Source of the DNA: a virus
Reading direction: 5' to 3' (one strand)
Virus record (IMG/VR): IMGVR_UViG_3300007735_000452
Span: 1-20,472 of that record
Length of the DNA: 20,472 bases
Part shown: one piece after another, positions 4,058 through 20,472 of the stretch
Numbering within the stretch: position 1 is the first letter of the stretch
Layout of the letters: the number at the start of each line of letters is the position of its first letter
Made by a program: the position numbers and the translations under genes
The notes under the pieces: model-generated
The model's input: only the letters and a program-made list of their open reading frames with translations
Told to the model about the DNA's origin: nothing
Database searches by the model: none

Positions 4058-4066
4058 GACTAGACC

Positions 4067-4387
4067 ATGCAATACTGGACAAAGAACGGGTCTATCCCAA
4101 GCACTGAAACTGATGGTACTGAAGGCTGGCAACCGGCTCCTTCGCCTCCGACAGACGTTCCCGCTGACAAAGAGTTGGTATGGCTAAACTGGGAATGGAT
4201 CATCAGAGACCCTAAGCCAGCAGACAGAGTAGGTTATCAGTGGAACTGGCAGCACGAGAGCAGGACTTGGGTAGAGAGTGCTTGGCAGACTGAACTACAG
4301 CCTATAGAGGCTATAGAGTTACCTGAGATTGTGGTTACAACACAACTATCTGGATTTACTACCTCACAAATTTCTGAAATATCTTGA
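4067..4387 (+). CDS. Small Trp-rich hypothetical protein, fibre-associated
   Basis: This 106-aa protein is rich in Trp (MQYWTKNG, LVWLNWEWI, YQWNWQHESRTWVESAWQ) with a proline-rich spacer (PAPSPPTDVPADKE) and a C-terminal segment TTSQISEIS. I do not recognise a named family. Its position at the end of the fibre block, 9 nt after the LamG gene, suggests a chaperone or accessory for the adhesin, or a small virion protein. Its TGA stop (4385-4387) overlaps the first of two CTTGACAAA repeats that precede the head-module promoter. Confidence 0.65.
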   Translation: MQYWTKNGSIPSTETDGTEGWQPAPSPPTDVPADKELVWLNWEWIIRDPKPADRVGYQWNWQHESRTWVESAWQTELQPIEAIELPEIVVTTQLSGFTTSQISEIS

Positions 4388-4390
4388 CAA

Positions 4391-4408
4391 AAGCATTGAA
4401 ACATGCTT
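4391..4408. promoter_or_regulatory. Inverted repeat overlapping promoter -35 (operator candidate)
   Basis: AAGCAT (4391-4396) and ATGCTT (4403-4408) form a perfect 6-bp inverted repeat with a 6-nt spacer, whose right arm enters the -35 box. It is flanked by direct repeats CTTGACAAA at 4383-4391 and 4406-4414. The stem is too weak and has no T-run to be a good terminator. An operator or protein-binding site is possible but unproven. Confidence 0.3.
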
Positions 4409-4435
4409 GACAAATTCATAAAGATGTGGTAAAAT
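4407..4435 (+). promoter_or_regulatory. Sigma70-type promoter for the head module
   Basis: A perfect -35 box TTGACA (4407-4412) is followed by a 17-nt spacer and a -10 box TAAAAT (4430-4435; five of six consensus bases). Transcription would be expected to start about 6-8 nt after the -10, at roughly 4442-4443, which is on or next to the ATG of the following gene. It occupies the only gap in the fibre-to-head transition (4388-4442), so it probably uncouples head expression from the fibre block. Confidence 0.75.
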
Positions 4436-4442
4436 AACAACA

Positions 4443-4688
4443 ATGGATACTACTAAGTTACTAAGATACTACGAAGAGCGATTCGACCTCATGAGCCATT
4501 CAGGATGGAAAACTCTATTGGAAGACGCTAAAGAGTACAGAAACGCAGTAGCGGACATAACCACTATCTCTAGTGGAGAAGAACTACAAGAACGTAAAGG
4601 TCAACTAAAAGCTTTAGATTGGCTCCTAACGATGCATGAAGTTTGGGAAAAAGCCTATGAGGATTTAGTCAATGAGGATACTAAATGA
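4443..4688 (+). CDS. Small helical hypothetical protein
   Basis: This is an 81-aa, charged, mostly helical protein (MDTTKLLRYYEERFDLM ... SGEELQERKGQLKALDWLLT ... EKAYEDLVNEDTK). I do not recognise a named family, although small proteins of this character often sit next to head genes in podoviruses. There is no Shine-Dalgarno before the ATG at 4443. The promoter immediately upstream would place the transcript start at the ATG, giving a leaderless mRNA. An internal ATG at 4491 (MSHSGWKT) is an alternative start. It overlaps the next gene by 17 nt, implying coupling. Confidence 0.7.
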   Translation: MDTTKLLRYYEERFDLMSHSGWKTLLEDAKEYRNAVADITTISSGEELQERKGQLKALDWLLTMHEVWEKAYEDLVNEDTK

Positions 4689-4911
4689 TTTTGAATGTGG
4701 AAACCATCACGTAAGCGAACACTTCGTTGATAGTTCCGTAAGTAGTGTGCAGTGCCCGTACTGTGATTTGTTAGCACATCGTAAGTTAGCAGCTCCTAGG
4801 AGTAAATTGGAAGGCATCACAGGTGCTTTTCCAACCGCTCATGATCGATGGGCAACAGTCCATGAACAGGCAGCAAACGTAGCAAGATCTAAGTCCTACT
4901 ATGAGGGATAA
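4672..4911 (+). CDS. Small putative zinc-ribbon protein
   Basis: This 79-aa protein has C9-x2-H12 near the N-terminus (FECGNHH) and C28-x2-C31 (CPYC), a spacing compatible with a single zinc ribbon of the FmdB-like type. The C-terminal half (SKLEGITGAFPTAHDRWATV, then HEQAANVARSKSYYEG) is probably helical. Its start lies inside the end of the preceding gene, and it sits just upstream of the scaffold. The function is unknown: a regulatory or capsid-assembly role is conceivable, and zinc binding is inferred from the Cys/His pattern only. Confidence 0.7.
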   Translation: MRILNDFECGNHHVSEHFVDSSVSSVQCPYCDLLAHRKLAAPRSKLEGITGAFPTAHDRWATVHEQAANVARSKSYYEG

Positions 4912-5772: not shown

Positions 5773-5844
5773 ATGGCTACAGCAGCTTATCCTGGAGGTA
5801 GTTCCTCCATTGTCAACAAGACCAACGCAGATAAATTTATCCCT
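5773..5844 (+). CDS. Major capsid protein, exon 1 (N-terminal 24 codons)
   Basis: The ATG at 5773, after an AAAGGAA ribosome site, encodes MATAAYPGGSSSIVNKTNAD followed by KFIP, an N-terminus typical of T7-like capsid proteins of this group. In this frame translation meets a stop at 5851 after two more codons (S, L), so without splicing only a 26-residue peptide is made. Joined to 6437 it continues as FIP-EIWSDEIIASYKK, the sequence expected in this capsid family. The 5' exon ends in T, as group I introns require for the U-G wobble. This exon is easily missed by gene callers. Confidence 0.9.
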
Positions 5845-5851
5845 AGCCTAT

Positions 5852-5863
5852 AATTTTGGGGAT
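5852..5863 (+). other. Internal guide sequence of the intron (P10 + P1 strands)
   Basis: AATTTT (5852-5857) is complementary to the start of exon 2, and GGGGAT (5858-5863) is complementary to the end of exon 1. The two halves abut, so one guide aligns both exons for ligation. This is the strongest local evidence for the exact splice sites. Confidence 0.85.
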
Positions 5864-5950
5864 GTAAAACCTTCTCTGAATAACTGGGAAAGAACGTAAG
5901 GTGTCTTAACCAGAGGGAACACGACAGTACCAACAATGCAGTTCACGCCT

Positions 5951-5956
5951 AGGAGG
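5951..5956 (+). promoter_or_regulatory. Ribosome binding site of the intronic endonuclease
   Basis: AGGAGG, a full Shine-Dalgarno core, ends 4 nt before the ATG at 5961. The endonuclease thus has its own strong initiation site and is not a fusion to exon 1, which stops at 5851-5853 in another frame. Confidence 0.75.
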
Positions 5957-5960
5957 GTGT

Positions 5961-6404
5961 ATGAAGCGATTAAGTTGGAAGTATATTGCAGGTTTGATTG
6001 ATGGCGAAGGCTGTCTAGATGTTCAAGTAACAAACGGTATTTATGTCAGACCAAGGGTAAGAATAGGTATGGCAGTGAATGCAAAGATGGTACTTGATAT
6101 GATGCAAGTTAATCATGGTGGTTATTTGTGTCACCGTGAAAGTAAGAATGAAAATTGGCAAGATTCTGTAAGTTGGGAACTTGTCGGTTACAACCAAGTG
6201 TGTCCTTTCTTACGAAACATTGCTAATCATCTATATATCAAACACGAACAAGCCAGATTTCTCCTTTGGATGGAGAATAACTTAAAAGGCAAGCAGGTCG
6301 CTGATGCAGCAAGACAGCTTGTAATAACTGAGCTAAAAGCAATGAAGCGTGACCCGCACAGACTAAGTGAGAAGGCACAGGAGAAAGTTTTAATACTTCT
6401 GTGA
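5961..6404 (+). CDS. LAGLIDADG homing endonuclease, intron-encoded
   Basis: This is a 147-aa protein with one LAGLIDADG motif, IAGLIDGEG at residues 9-17, preceded by the usual WKY. D14 and the catalytic-position acid E16 are present. The following strands (CLDVQV, YVRPRVRIGMAVNAKMVLDM, HGGYL, SVSWELVGYNQVCPFLRNIA, YIKHEQARFLLWMENN) match the single-motif family fold. With one motif it should act as a homodimer cutting a pseudo-palindromic site, here presumably the intronless capsid exon junction, so that the intron spreads by double-strand-break repair. Its stop lies 7 nt before the predicted 3' strand of P7, so the gene runs almost into the catalytic core. Activity is inferred; the motif looks intact. 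Confidence 0.92.
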   Translation: MKRLSWKYIAGLIDGEGCLDVQVTNGIYVRPRVRIGMAVNAKMVLDMMQVNHGGYLCHRESKNENWQDSVSWELVGYNQVCPFLRNIANHLYIKHEQARFLLWMENNLKGKQVADAARQLVITELKAMKRDPHRLSEKAQEKVLILL

Positions 6405-6418
6405 TGCGATAGTCGGAG

Positions 6419-6432
6419 CATCTTTTTAGATG
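6419..6432 (+). other. P9 hairpin of the intron
   Basis: CATCT / AGATG form a 5-bp stem with a TTTT loop between the candidate P7 3' strand and the 3' splice site, the expected place for P9. It ends 4 nt before the terminal G at 6436. Confidence 0.6.
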
Positions 6433-6436
6433 TTGG

Positions 6437-7318
6437 GAAATTTGGTCTGATGAAATCATCGCTTCCTACAAAAAAGCATTGGTTATGGCTAATCTTGTAA
6501 ACAAGATGAGCATGAAAGGTAAGAAAGGAGACACACTTCACGTTCCTGTTCCTACCCGTGGTTCTGCATTTGCTAAAGCAGCTAACACTGCTGTTACAAT
6601 TCAAGCTGATGTTGAGACTGAAGTTCAAGTTCTTTTGAACAAGCATTTTGAATACTCGCGTCTAATTGAAGACATCGTTGAAGTTCAGGCTCTTGCCTCA
6701 CTTCGTCGTTTCTACACTGAAGATGCTGGTTATGCTCTTGCACGTCAAGTAGATACTGACCTTATTCAACTAGGTCGTTCAGCAAACAACGGTGCTGGTA
6801 CTGCTGCTTATGCTAACGCATATATTGGTGGTGATGGCAGCACTGCTTACAATAGCGCATCTCCCAATGCTTCAGCACTGACCGATGCTGGTATTCGTCG
6901 TATTATCCAGCGTTTGGACGATAACGATGCTCCTATGACTGATCGTTATCTTGTTGTTCCTCCATCAAGCCGTAACACGCTTATGGGTCTTGCTCGCTTT
7001 ACTGAACAAGCCTTTGTTGGTGAGCAAGGTGCAAACAACACCATCCGTAACGGTCAGATTGGTGATGTATACGGTGTTAAAGTGTTTGTTACGCCTCAGT
7101 GCGATACCGCTACTGGTTCTGCACGTATTGCTCTTATGTTCCACAAAGACGCTGCTGTCCTTGCAGAACAAATGGGTGTTCGTTCGCAGACTCAATACAA
7201 ACAAGAGTATCTAGCTACGTTGTTTACTAGCGATACCCTTTATGGTACTGCTCTGCTTCGTAAGGGTGATTTGAGTTCTGTTCCTACCTCAATGTTCCCT
7301 ATCGCTGTTCCTGCGTAA
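6437..7318 (+). CDS. Major capsid protein, exon 2
   Basis: The exon starts at GAA (6437) and encodes EIWSDEIIASYKKALVMANL, then VNKMSMKGKKGDTLHVPVPT, the conserved N-terminal part of the HK97-fold coat protein of T7-like phages. It continues through QADVETEVQVLLNKHFEYSR, FYTEDAGYALARQVDTDLIQ, YLVVPPSSRNTLM and IRNGQIGDVYGVKVFVTP to MFPIAVPA. With exon 1 the mature reading frame is 317 aa, a normal length for the family. The protein builds the icosahedral head with the scaffold encoded just upstream. Starts at TTG 6479 or ATG 6485 would be false and would lose the conserved N-arm. A strong terminator follows 8 nt after the stop. Confidence 0.93.
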   Translation, partial: EIWSDEIIASYKKALVMANLVNKMSMKGKKGDTLHVPVPTRGSAFAKAANTAVTIQADVETEVQVLLNKHFEYSRLIEDIVEVQALASLRRFYTEDAGYALARQVDTDLIQLGRSANNGAGTAAYANAYIGGDGSTAYNSASPNASALTDAGIRRIIQRLDDNDAPMTDRYLVVPPSSRNTLMGLARFTEQAFVGEQGANNTIRNGQIGDVYGVKVFVTPQCDTATGSARIALMFHKDAAVLAEQMGVRSQTQYKQEYLATLFTSDTLYGTALLRKGDLSSVPTSMFPIAVPA

Positions 7319-19783: not shown

Positions 19784-20472
19784 CTAGATTTCACACACAC
19801 CGGCTACACAGGCAAGCTGCTGTGCACCTTCAACGTTATCATCATTTTCCTTAAGCATGTCCCAATTGATGTCAACAGGCATCTTAGCTAACAAGGCTTC
19901 ATAGTCTTCCTTGCTGCATGTCTCATAAGGAGCCTGTCGATAAGTGCCCCCATCCATTGGCAGGAATGATACACCAGTACAGATGTCAAAGTTATCGAAT
20001 ACCCAAGCCCCTACAGTAGGCCATTCATTCTCATTGACTGAGATAGTTACTGAAGGTTTATGTTCGCACCAGTGAAGCTGATATACACGCCATAGCTTAA
20101 GATGAGATATAGCATCAACATCATCCCTGGTAATAGCACCTTCAGGAGCCTTCATAGGAAATGAGAACACTGTAGTGCTATCTGGTCTCATCACACAAGG
20201 TTCACTAGGAATACCTTGTTCGATCATAAACGCCGTGAGAGGGTCTTTTTTATCTGATCGTACACGCCTAATGTAATACTGGGCATGTTGAGGATGAATG
20301 CCAGAAGCAGTGCCACACAACTGAGACACAGTACCAGAAGGCTTGACGCAAGTGATAGCAGCAGAGACAGGGATATTAAGAGCTTCTGCTGTAACTTCAT
20401 TAGCAACGATTGCTTCATTTCTCAACATCTCCAATCTTGCTGGTAACGCTTTATCATCAGGATCATTCAGTA
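19784..20472 (-). CDS. Class II (adenosylcobalamin-dependent) ribonucleotide reductase, C-terminal part
   Basis: The minus-strand frame is open from the window edge to the TAG at 19784-19786; 228 residues are visible and the N-terminus is outside. The block AAITCVKPSGTVSQLCGTAS and GIHPQHAQYYIRRVRSDKKD is diagnostic of monomeric B12-dependent ribonucleoside-triphosphate reductase (RTPR type). The C-terminal CVAGVC near the end has the C-x4-C spacing of the redox pair that re-reduces the active site. The enzyme makes deoxynucleotides for phage DNA replication without needing oxygen. It converges on the structural operon, so it belongs to another transcription unit, probably early or metabolic. 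TTG 20434 is not the real start, since the frame continues upstream (ALPARLEMLRNEA). Confidence 0.92.
   Translation of the reverse strand, partial: LNDPDDKALPARLEMLRNEAIVANEVTAEALNIPVSAAITCVKPSGTVSQLCGTASGIHPQHAQYYIRRVRSDKKDPLTAFMIEQGIPSEPCVMRPDSTTVFSFPMKAPEGAITRDDVDAISHLKLWRVYQLHWCEHKPSVTISVNENEWPTVGAWVFDNFDICTGVSFLPMDGGTYRQAPYETCSKEDYEALLAKMPVDINWDMLKENDDNVEGAQQLACVAGVCEI

Follow-up and report, generated by a model that had tools for sequence, protein, structure and literature searches.

The capsid gene and its two exons

The window, which is the whole 20,472-nt IMG/VR virus record IMGVR_UViG_3300007735_000452, comes from a podovirus-like phage. Its major capsid protein gene lies on the plus strand in two parts, and the stretch between them carries an open reading frame (ORF) for a predicted homing endonuclease.

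5773-5844, plus strand: exon 1 of the major capsid protein gene, 24 codons (MATAAYPGGSSSIVNKTNADKFIP), ending in ADKFIP
5845-6436, plus strand: group I intron of 592 nt, supported by covariation of P1, P3, P6, P7, P8, P9 and P10 and by the empty-site pair L015/L076
5961-6404, plus strand: LAGLIDADG homing endonuclease ORF of 147 aa in the P6 loop, with a GLIDGEG motif
6437-7318, plus strand: exon 2 of the major capsid protein gene, beginning EIWSDEIIASYKK

A first-pass annotation of the sequence had proposed the exon and intron positions, and they stand: 5773-5844 joined to 6437-7318 is an open frame of 317 aa, and the frame of exon 1 is stopped inside the intron at 5851-5853. The spliced product matched phrog_267 (major head protein) with 168.5 bits (E 5e-49) over residues 10-300, and exon 2 by itself with 157.4 bits (E 1.2e-45). 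Exon 2 also matched Pfam Phage_capsid_2 (E 1.2e-13), and the capsid product matched the PDB capsid 9jwb (E 1.6e-34). The flanking genes are weakly scaffold-like upstream and encode tail proteins downstream; this gene order and the profile match of the spliced product together identify the major capsid protein. Capsid comparison places cyanopodoviruses and HTVC011P nearest among isolates, none of them reaching 60% identity, and the window does not include the early region. The predicted ligated exon junction is TTTATCCCT-GAAATTTGG, and the peptide crossing it would be FIPEIWSDEIIASYK (FIP/EIWSDE). Head formation would depend on splicing.

The capsid protein might instead start in exon 2, at TTG 6479 or ATG 6485, with exon 1 and the intron as a dead remnant, which was the reading that the first-pass annotation had set against its own. 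A 279-aa ORF does run from TTG 6479. However, it scored 138.5 bits against phrog_267, 30 bits below the spliced frame, and the exon 1 residues and EIWSDEIIASYKK are kept in intronless capsid genes among the matches listed. A dead intron would also lose the covariation of P3, P7, P8 and P9, yet this is kept in dozens of lineages. We consider a capsid start in exon 2 very improbable.

Elsewhere in the window, the minus strand at 19784-20472 encodes a ribonucleotide reductase (phrog_367, E 4e-60), truncated by the contig end to its C-terminal part. No tRNA was found, and no promoter-like site rose above chance.

Intron boundaries and catalytic core

The following elements make up the intron core, all on the plus strand.

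5839-5844: P1 exon strand AUCCCU, pairing with the internal guide at 5858-5863, with U.G at the splice site
5851-5853: in-frame TAA in the P1 loop, where a ribosome on unspliced RNA would stop 9 nt past exon 1
5852-5857: P10 intron strand AAUUUU, pairing with exon 2 GAAAUU at 6437-6442
5858-5863: P1 internal guide GGGGAU, supported by pairing and covariation
5870-5876: P3 5ʹ strand CCUUCUC, pairing with GAGAAGG at 6369-6375
5884-5887 and 5910-5913: P4, CUGG/CCAG, 100% paired and nearly invariant
5890-5907: P5 hairpin between the P4 strands, from a single-sequence fold
5915-5923: P6 5ʹ strand GGG-AA-CACG, pairing with 6348-6355 (GGG-CACG/CGUG-CCC)
6361-6365 and 6410-6414: P7, 5ʹ GACUA and 3ʹ UAGUC, the guanosine-binding helix by position
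6376-6383 and 6396-6403: P8, the stretch following P3
6417-6434: P9 hairpin AGCAUCU-UUUU-AGAUGUU, supported by covariation
6436: intron terminal G (omega G), the same in relatives with a clear 3ʹ site

To count pairs, we used an alignment of 36 related introns with 50 pairs and 1734 cells. Pairing was kept in 95.0% of the cells, a figure inflated by deriving the structure from the same sequences, compared with 34.4-45.4% when the partners were slid by 1-3 columns. Double changes, which this derivation does not inflate, were found at 27 of the 50 pairs and in 239 cells, compared with 57.6 in shuffles (0 of 500 as high), and the covariation score was 0.397 against 0.116 for shuffled introns, the shuffles ignoring kinship. 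In these sequences, the double changes are the firm part of the structural evidence.

The P1, P10, P9 hairpin and terminal G described in the first-pass annotation are all present, and their pairs covary among the 36 introns. P1 was 96.3% paired with double changes in three of six pairs, and its variants in relatives include AUUCCU/GGGAAU, UUGCCU/GGGCAA and ACGCCU/GGGCGU. For P10, the four pairs nearest the splice site were 97.6% paired with double changes in three of them, and the outer two pairs were 73.6% paired. These values come from the alignment count, which we used in place of an automatic whole-strand scan; in the scan, 62 of 5000 shuffles did as well as P10, a weak result owed in part to a pattern that set the 3ʹ site wrongly in several loci. 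P9 was 88.1% paired with double changes in six of seven pairs.

P3 was identified from the relatives, in which a variable heptamer before P4 complements a heptamer in the final codons of the ORF. It was 99.6% paired in the 36 introns with double changes in five of seven pairs, and it occurs as 16 distinct strand pairs, among them CCUCUUC/GAAGAGG, CCGUUUC/GAAACGG, CCAAAUC/GAUUUGG and UGGAAUC/GAUUCCA. P6 was 97.6% paired with double changes in four of seven pairs, P7 was 100% paired with an A-U to G-C double change in five loci, and the inner six pairs of P8 were paired in 97.7% of cells, here too with double changes. The intron thus combines a P1 with U.G and internal guide, a P3-P7 pseudoknot with P4, P6 and P8, and a P10 with terminal G, as a group I intron does. 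Neither P7.1 nor P7.2 was seen in the comparison of intron cores. An alternative placement had P3 adjoining P4 and took the conserved ACGACA...GCAGUUC stretch upstream of the ORF for P7; it was rejected, as its strands lack covariation, whereas the ORF end covaries.

Phage genes can likewise be split by inteins and translational bypass elements, both of which may carry endonucleases, and either might be imagined here in place of an RNA intron. The exon-1 frame, however, stops many times within the intron, beginning at 5851, the endonuclease ORF has a start of its own, and the RNA helices P1 and P10 covary with exon bases, which leaves an intein or bypass element barely conceivable.

Searches with the Rfam group I model

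A search of the intron with the Rfam group I model (RF00028), suggested as a check in the first-pass annotation, which would have taken a miss as refuting the intron, gave no match in the window at the gathering score or even at E 10, and at the curated score 0 of 19 relatives matched. This failure is not diagnostic, because the T4 td and nrdB introns, both proven, are likewise unreported at the gathering score. The td intron scored 40.3 bits and the capsid intron of mycobacteriophage LittleE 30.7 bits, over 204 contiguous nt, of the 50 bits needed. An Rfam match is an aid to detection and no defining feature of group I introns. The miss here is likely due to the 420-nt insertion in the P6 loop.

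The endonuclease ORF and its expression signals

The ORF in the window matched Pfam LAGLIDADG_1 with E 4.8e-4, 1.6 bits below the cut-off, and the same profile matched 22 of 23 relatives (best E 2.4e-9). Its AlphaFold2 model had a pLDDT of 93.9, and the best Foldseek matches were I-CvuI and I-CreI (E ~2e-8), enzymes that originate in algal chloroplast introns. These PDB structures share the single-motif LAGLIDADG fold and the size of about 150 residues (TM ~0.67), but are only 16-20% identical to the ORF product. The motif and the modelled alpha-beta-beta-alpha-beta-beta-alpha fold would place the protein in the single-motif, homodimeric class. Residues G11, D14, G15 and E16 are invariant among the 23 relatives. 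The spliced target AAATTT-ATCCCTG-AAATTT (5833-5838 plus 6438-6443) is a possible pseudo-palindrome for a homodimeric enzyme.

5945-5960, plus strand: hairpin ACGCCU-AGGA-GGGUGU, abutting the ORF start, with Shine-Dalgarno bases in the loop and 3ʹ arm

The pairing of this hairpin is kept in most relatives with stems such as AAUACC/GGUAUU, ACUAC/GUAGU, AUCUAU/AUAGAU and ACAACC/GGUUGU; as these were chosen for pairing, only their variety counts as evidence. In 60 of 61 distinct introns, the frame of exon 1 meets a stop no more than 12 nt past the 5ʹ splice site, against a chance of about 0.24 uncorrected for kinship; the count includes by-eye correction of three mis-split rows (57 as printed). 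Both an early in-frame stop and a hairpin over the ORF start are known in phage introns (PMC3073962).

Overlap of the ORF with the ribozyme

From its place in the P6 loop, the ORF runs with its 3ʹ end into the catalytic core, a point that the earlier annotation had missed.

6348-6404, plus strand: coding and ribozyme region, codons 130-147 (RDPHRLSEKAQEKVLILL) followed by the stop TGA at 6402-6404; contains P6 3ʹ (6348-6355), P7 5ʹ, P3 3ʹ and P8

P3 was paired throughout (7/7) in 41 of 42 loci, despite one of its strands coding for protein. At unchanged residues, codon identity was 0.70 for codons 128-140 compared with 0.46 for codons 1-126, and the lysine of SE(K)A varies to Q, R, T, E, V, A, L or S, tracking the RNA pairing. 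Of 71 distinct ORFs, 34 stop at the P8 end and 10 inside P7; the others mostly stop in or near P9, with a few in exon 2, giving about a dozen places altogether. Edgell and colleagues predicted compensatory evolution and variable stop positions for ORFs that invade the core, and the overlap and stop variation fit their 'core creep' (PMC3073962). The family is a natural data set on the question raised there, how an ORF evolves once it has come to overlap the core of a ribozyme.

Codon identity in the first ten codons of the ORF (5961-5990) was as high as in the ribozyme overlap (0.70). In some relatives (L045 at 1487-1650, L050, L066, L071 and L073), the ORF has a Cys-rich, zinc-finger-like extension located in the P8 loop.

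Relatives, insertion sites and mobility

Relatives of the ORF numbered 75 in viral contigs, with more found by profile, giving 76 distinct copies altogether. All are from uncultured contigs, and two copies end at a contig end, leaving 74 with a readable flank. All 74 sit in a capsid-type gene with exon 1 upstream, and in most cases the downstream neighbour is the capsid protein from about residue 25 of the spliced product. This context persists where the capsids share only 20-25% identity. No relative was found in the cellular genome collection, and no phage isolate with an intron matching the window DNA was found. Proteins matching the ORF at 32-39% occur in Gordonia, Mycobacterium and Streptomyces phages and in cyanophage PP, annotated as other genes.

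The insertions fall at three sites within 10 nt. About 64 members occupy site A (between CCT and GAA), two (L174 and L187) occupy site B, 6-7 nt beyond A, and eight (e.g., L325 and L331) occupy site C, 10 nt beyond A between TGGT and CA; sites B and C, and six rows missed by the pattern, were assigned by eye. The internal guide of the introns at B and C is altered to match (AAAUCU/GGAUUU and UUUGGU/GCCAAA, respectively). The exon bases adjoining the intron, compared by eye, are almost identical between L331 at site C and L001, a near relative of the window, at site A. CCT precedes the intron in 66 of 66 site A members, whereas of 81 intronless genes only 28 have CCT as this Pro codon.

The intron boundaries follow from an empty-site pair, L015 carrying the intron and L076 lacking it. 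The two are identical over 92.4% of the capsid DNA, 95.7% upstream and 85.3% downstream, with the junction TTTATCCCT followed by GARATTTGG. In other pairs, the introns are far more alike than their surroundings. L001 and L013 have introns 98.5% identical, compared with 79.1% for exon 2 and 78.5% for the upstream gene; the window and L013 have introns 96.1% identical, exon 2 79.2% and upstream 80.9%; and the introns of L003 and L007 are 100% identical, with exon 2 at 91.1% and upstream at 77.1%. Near-identical introns (98.5%) in capsid genes about 79% alike indicate that the intron moves horizontally.

The ribozyme might splice while the protein is inactive or mainly a maturase that aids splicing. 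Some LAGLIDADG proteins do show maturase activity (review PMC3984707), the motif here reads IDGEG, and the C-terminal residues track RNA pairing. On the other hand, capsid genes that have diverged share almost identical introns, which requires that the intron recently moved horizontally into one and the same site, and the four motif residues are invariant in the 23 relatives. An inactive or maturase protein is improbable on these grounds.

Core covariation, the empty-site pair, the capsid profiles and the LAGLIDADG fold all bear out the central proposal of the first-pass annotation, a group I intron with a LAGLIDADG ORF in the capsid gene. Judged from sequence comparison, the insertion in the major capsid gene is very probably a group I intron that splices itself, is mobile and encodes a LAGLIDADG endonuclease. 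A ribosome on the capsid transcript would halt at the P1-loop stop codon, the RNA would fold P3-P9, and guanosine bound in P7 would attack just behind the final U of exon 1; exon 2 would be aligned by P10, and the ligated exons would give the 317-aa capsid protein. The ORF would be translated from intron RNA, limited by the hairpin over its start. As its final codons also form P6, P7, P3 and P8, translation and ribozyme folding would be mutually exclusive for each RNA molecule. The product may act as a LAGLIDADG homodimer and cut those capsid alleles of co-infecting phages that lack the intron, and break repair would copy the intron into the cut allele.

More tentatively, and with some doubt, this could be a capsid-only intron lineage of uncultured phages that has moved among the three sites by re-pairing of the guide, with an endonuclease C-terminus dictated by the ribozyme, and that serves as a weapon breaking the capsid gene of a rival during mixed infection. 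By analogy, PMC11620839 reports that the intron endonuclease of phage PhiPA3 interferes with a competing phage.

Comparison with known introns

The first-pass annotation had found an intron in the capsid gene unfamiliar, but there are precedents. Splicing of the LittleE capsid intron was demonstrated in 2013 by RT-PCR and N-terminal sequencing (PMC3706429; JF937101). It too interrupts a major capsid gene, is probably of group I and has a LAGLIDADG-type ORF, but it is 819 bp long, its ORF lies beyond the core and is read from the opposite strand, and it is known from one phage only, a siphovirus with an HK97-type capsid. For crAss-like phages of the delta and zeta groups, PMC7886860 describes group I introns in capsid genes, likewise with endonuclease ORFs and sometimes several per gene; these phages are of another order and from the gut, and their introns also occur in PolB, primase and other genes. 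A capsid intron of lactococcal phage Tuc2009 is mentioned as a citation in PMC3706429.

Regarding ORF placement, the T4 td intron with I-TevI is similar in having its ORF in the P6 loop extending into P7 and a hairpin over the ribosome-binding site, and an early in-frame stop is common to most introns of the td type; it differs in its GIY-YIG enzyme, an overlap of only 20 nt and its gene, thymidylate synthase (PMC3073962). The LSU rDNA intron of Synechococcus lividus has a LAGLIDADG ORF overlapping P6/P7/P3/P8, but in the same table the ORF is filed under P8, and the intron is in a cellular ribosomal RNA gene (PMC3073962).

Capsid introns are thus already known. In the open-access literature, no description of the family in the window was found, and this large and well-populated family is apparently undescribed. 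The novelty lies in the family itself, in its having one target gene only, in how close together the sites are and in the extent of co-evolution between ORF and ribozyme. The family is of interest for its specificity for one gene across very divergent phages, the three adjacent sites and the co-evolution data. From the contigs compared, putative self-splicing introns of uncultured podovirus-like phages appear to settle repeatedly in one structural gene that is highly expressed. A capsid gene recurrently split in this way is therefore easily annotated with a start too far downstream.

Additional introns in the same capsid genes

In L174 (3330-4930), the capsid gene apparently has two group I introns with a 3-nt exon (GGT) between them. 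The site B intron comes first and is followed by a site C intron that carries a 250-aa two-motif LAGLIDADG ORF (4066-4818) and has its own P3 (CCTTATC/GATAAGG) and its own P7. More introns were seen in the same capsid genes of L021 (3440-4700), L043 (from 3560), L056, L065 and L071. The additional intron of L021 is about 30 nt into exon 2 and has a two-motif LAGLIDADG ORF, and those of L043, L065 and L071 are at the conserved codons NTEYEG, the ORF in L071 looking like an HNH endonuclease.
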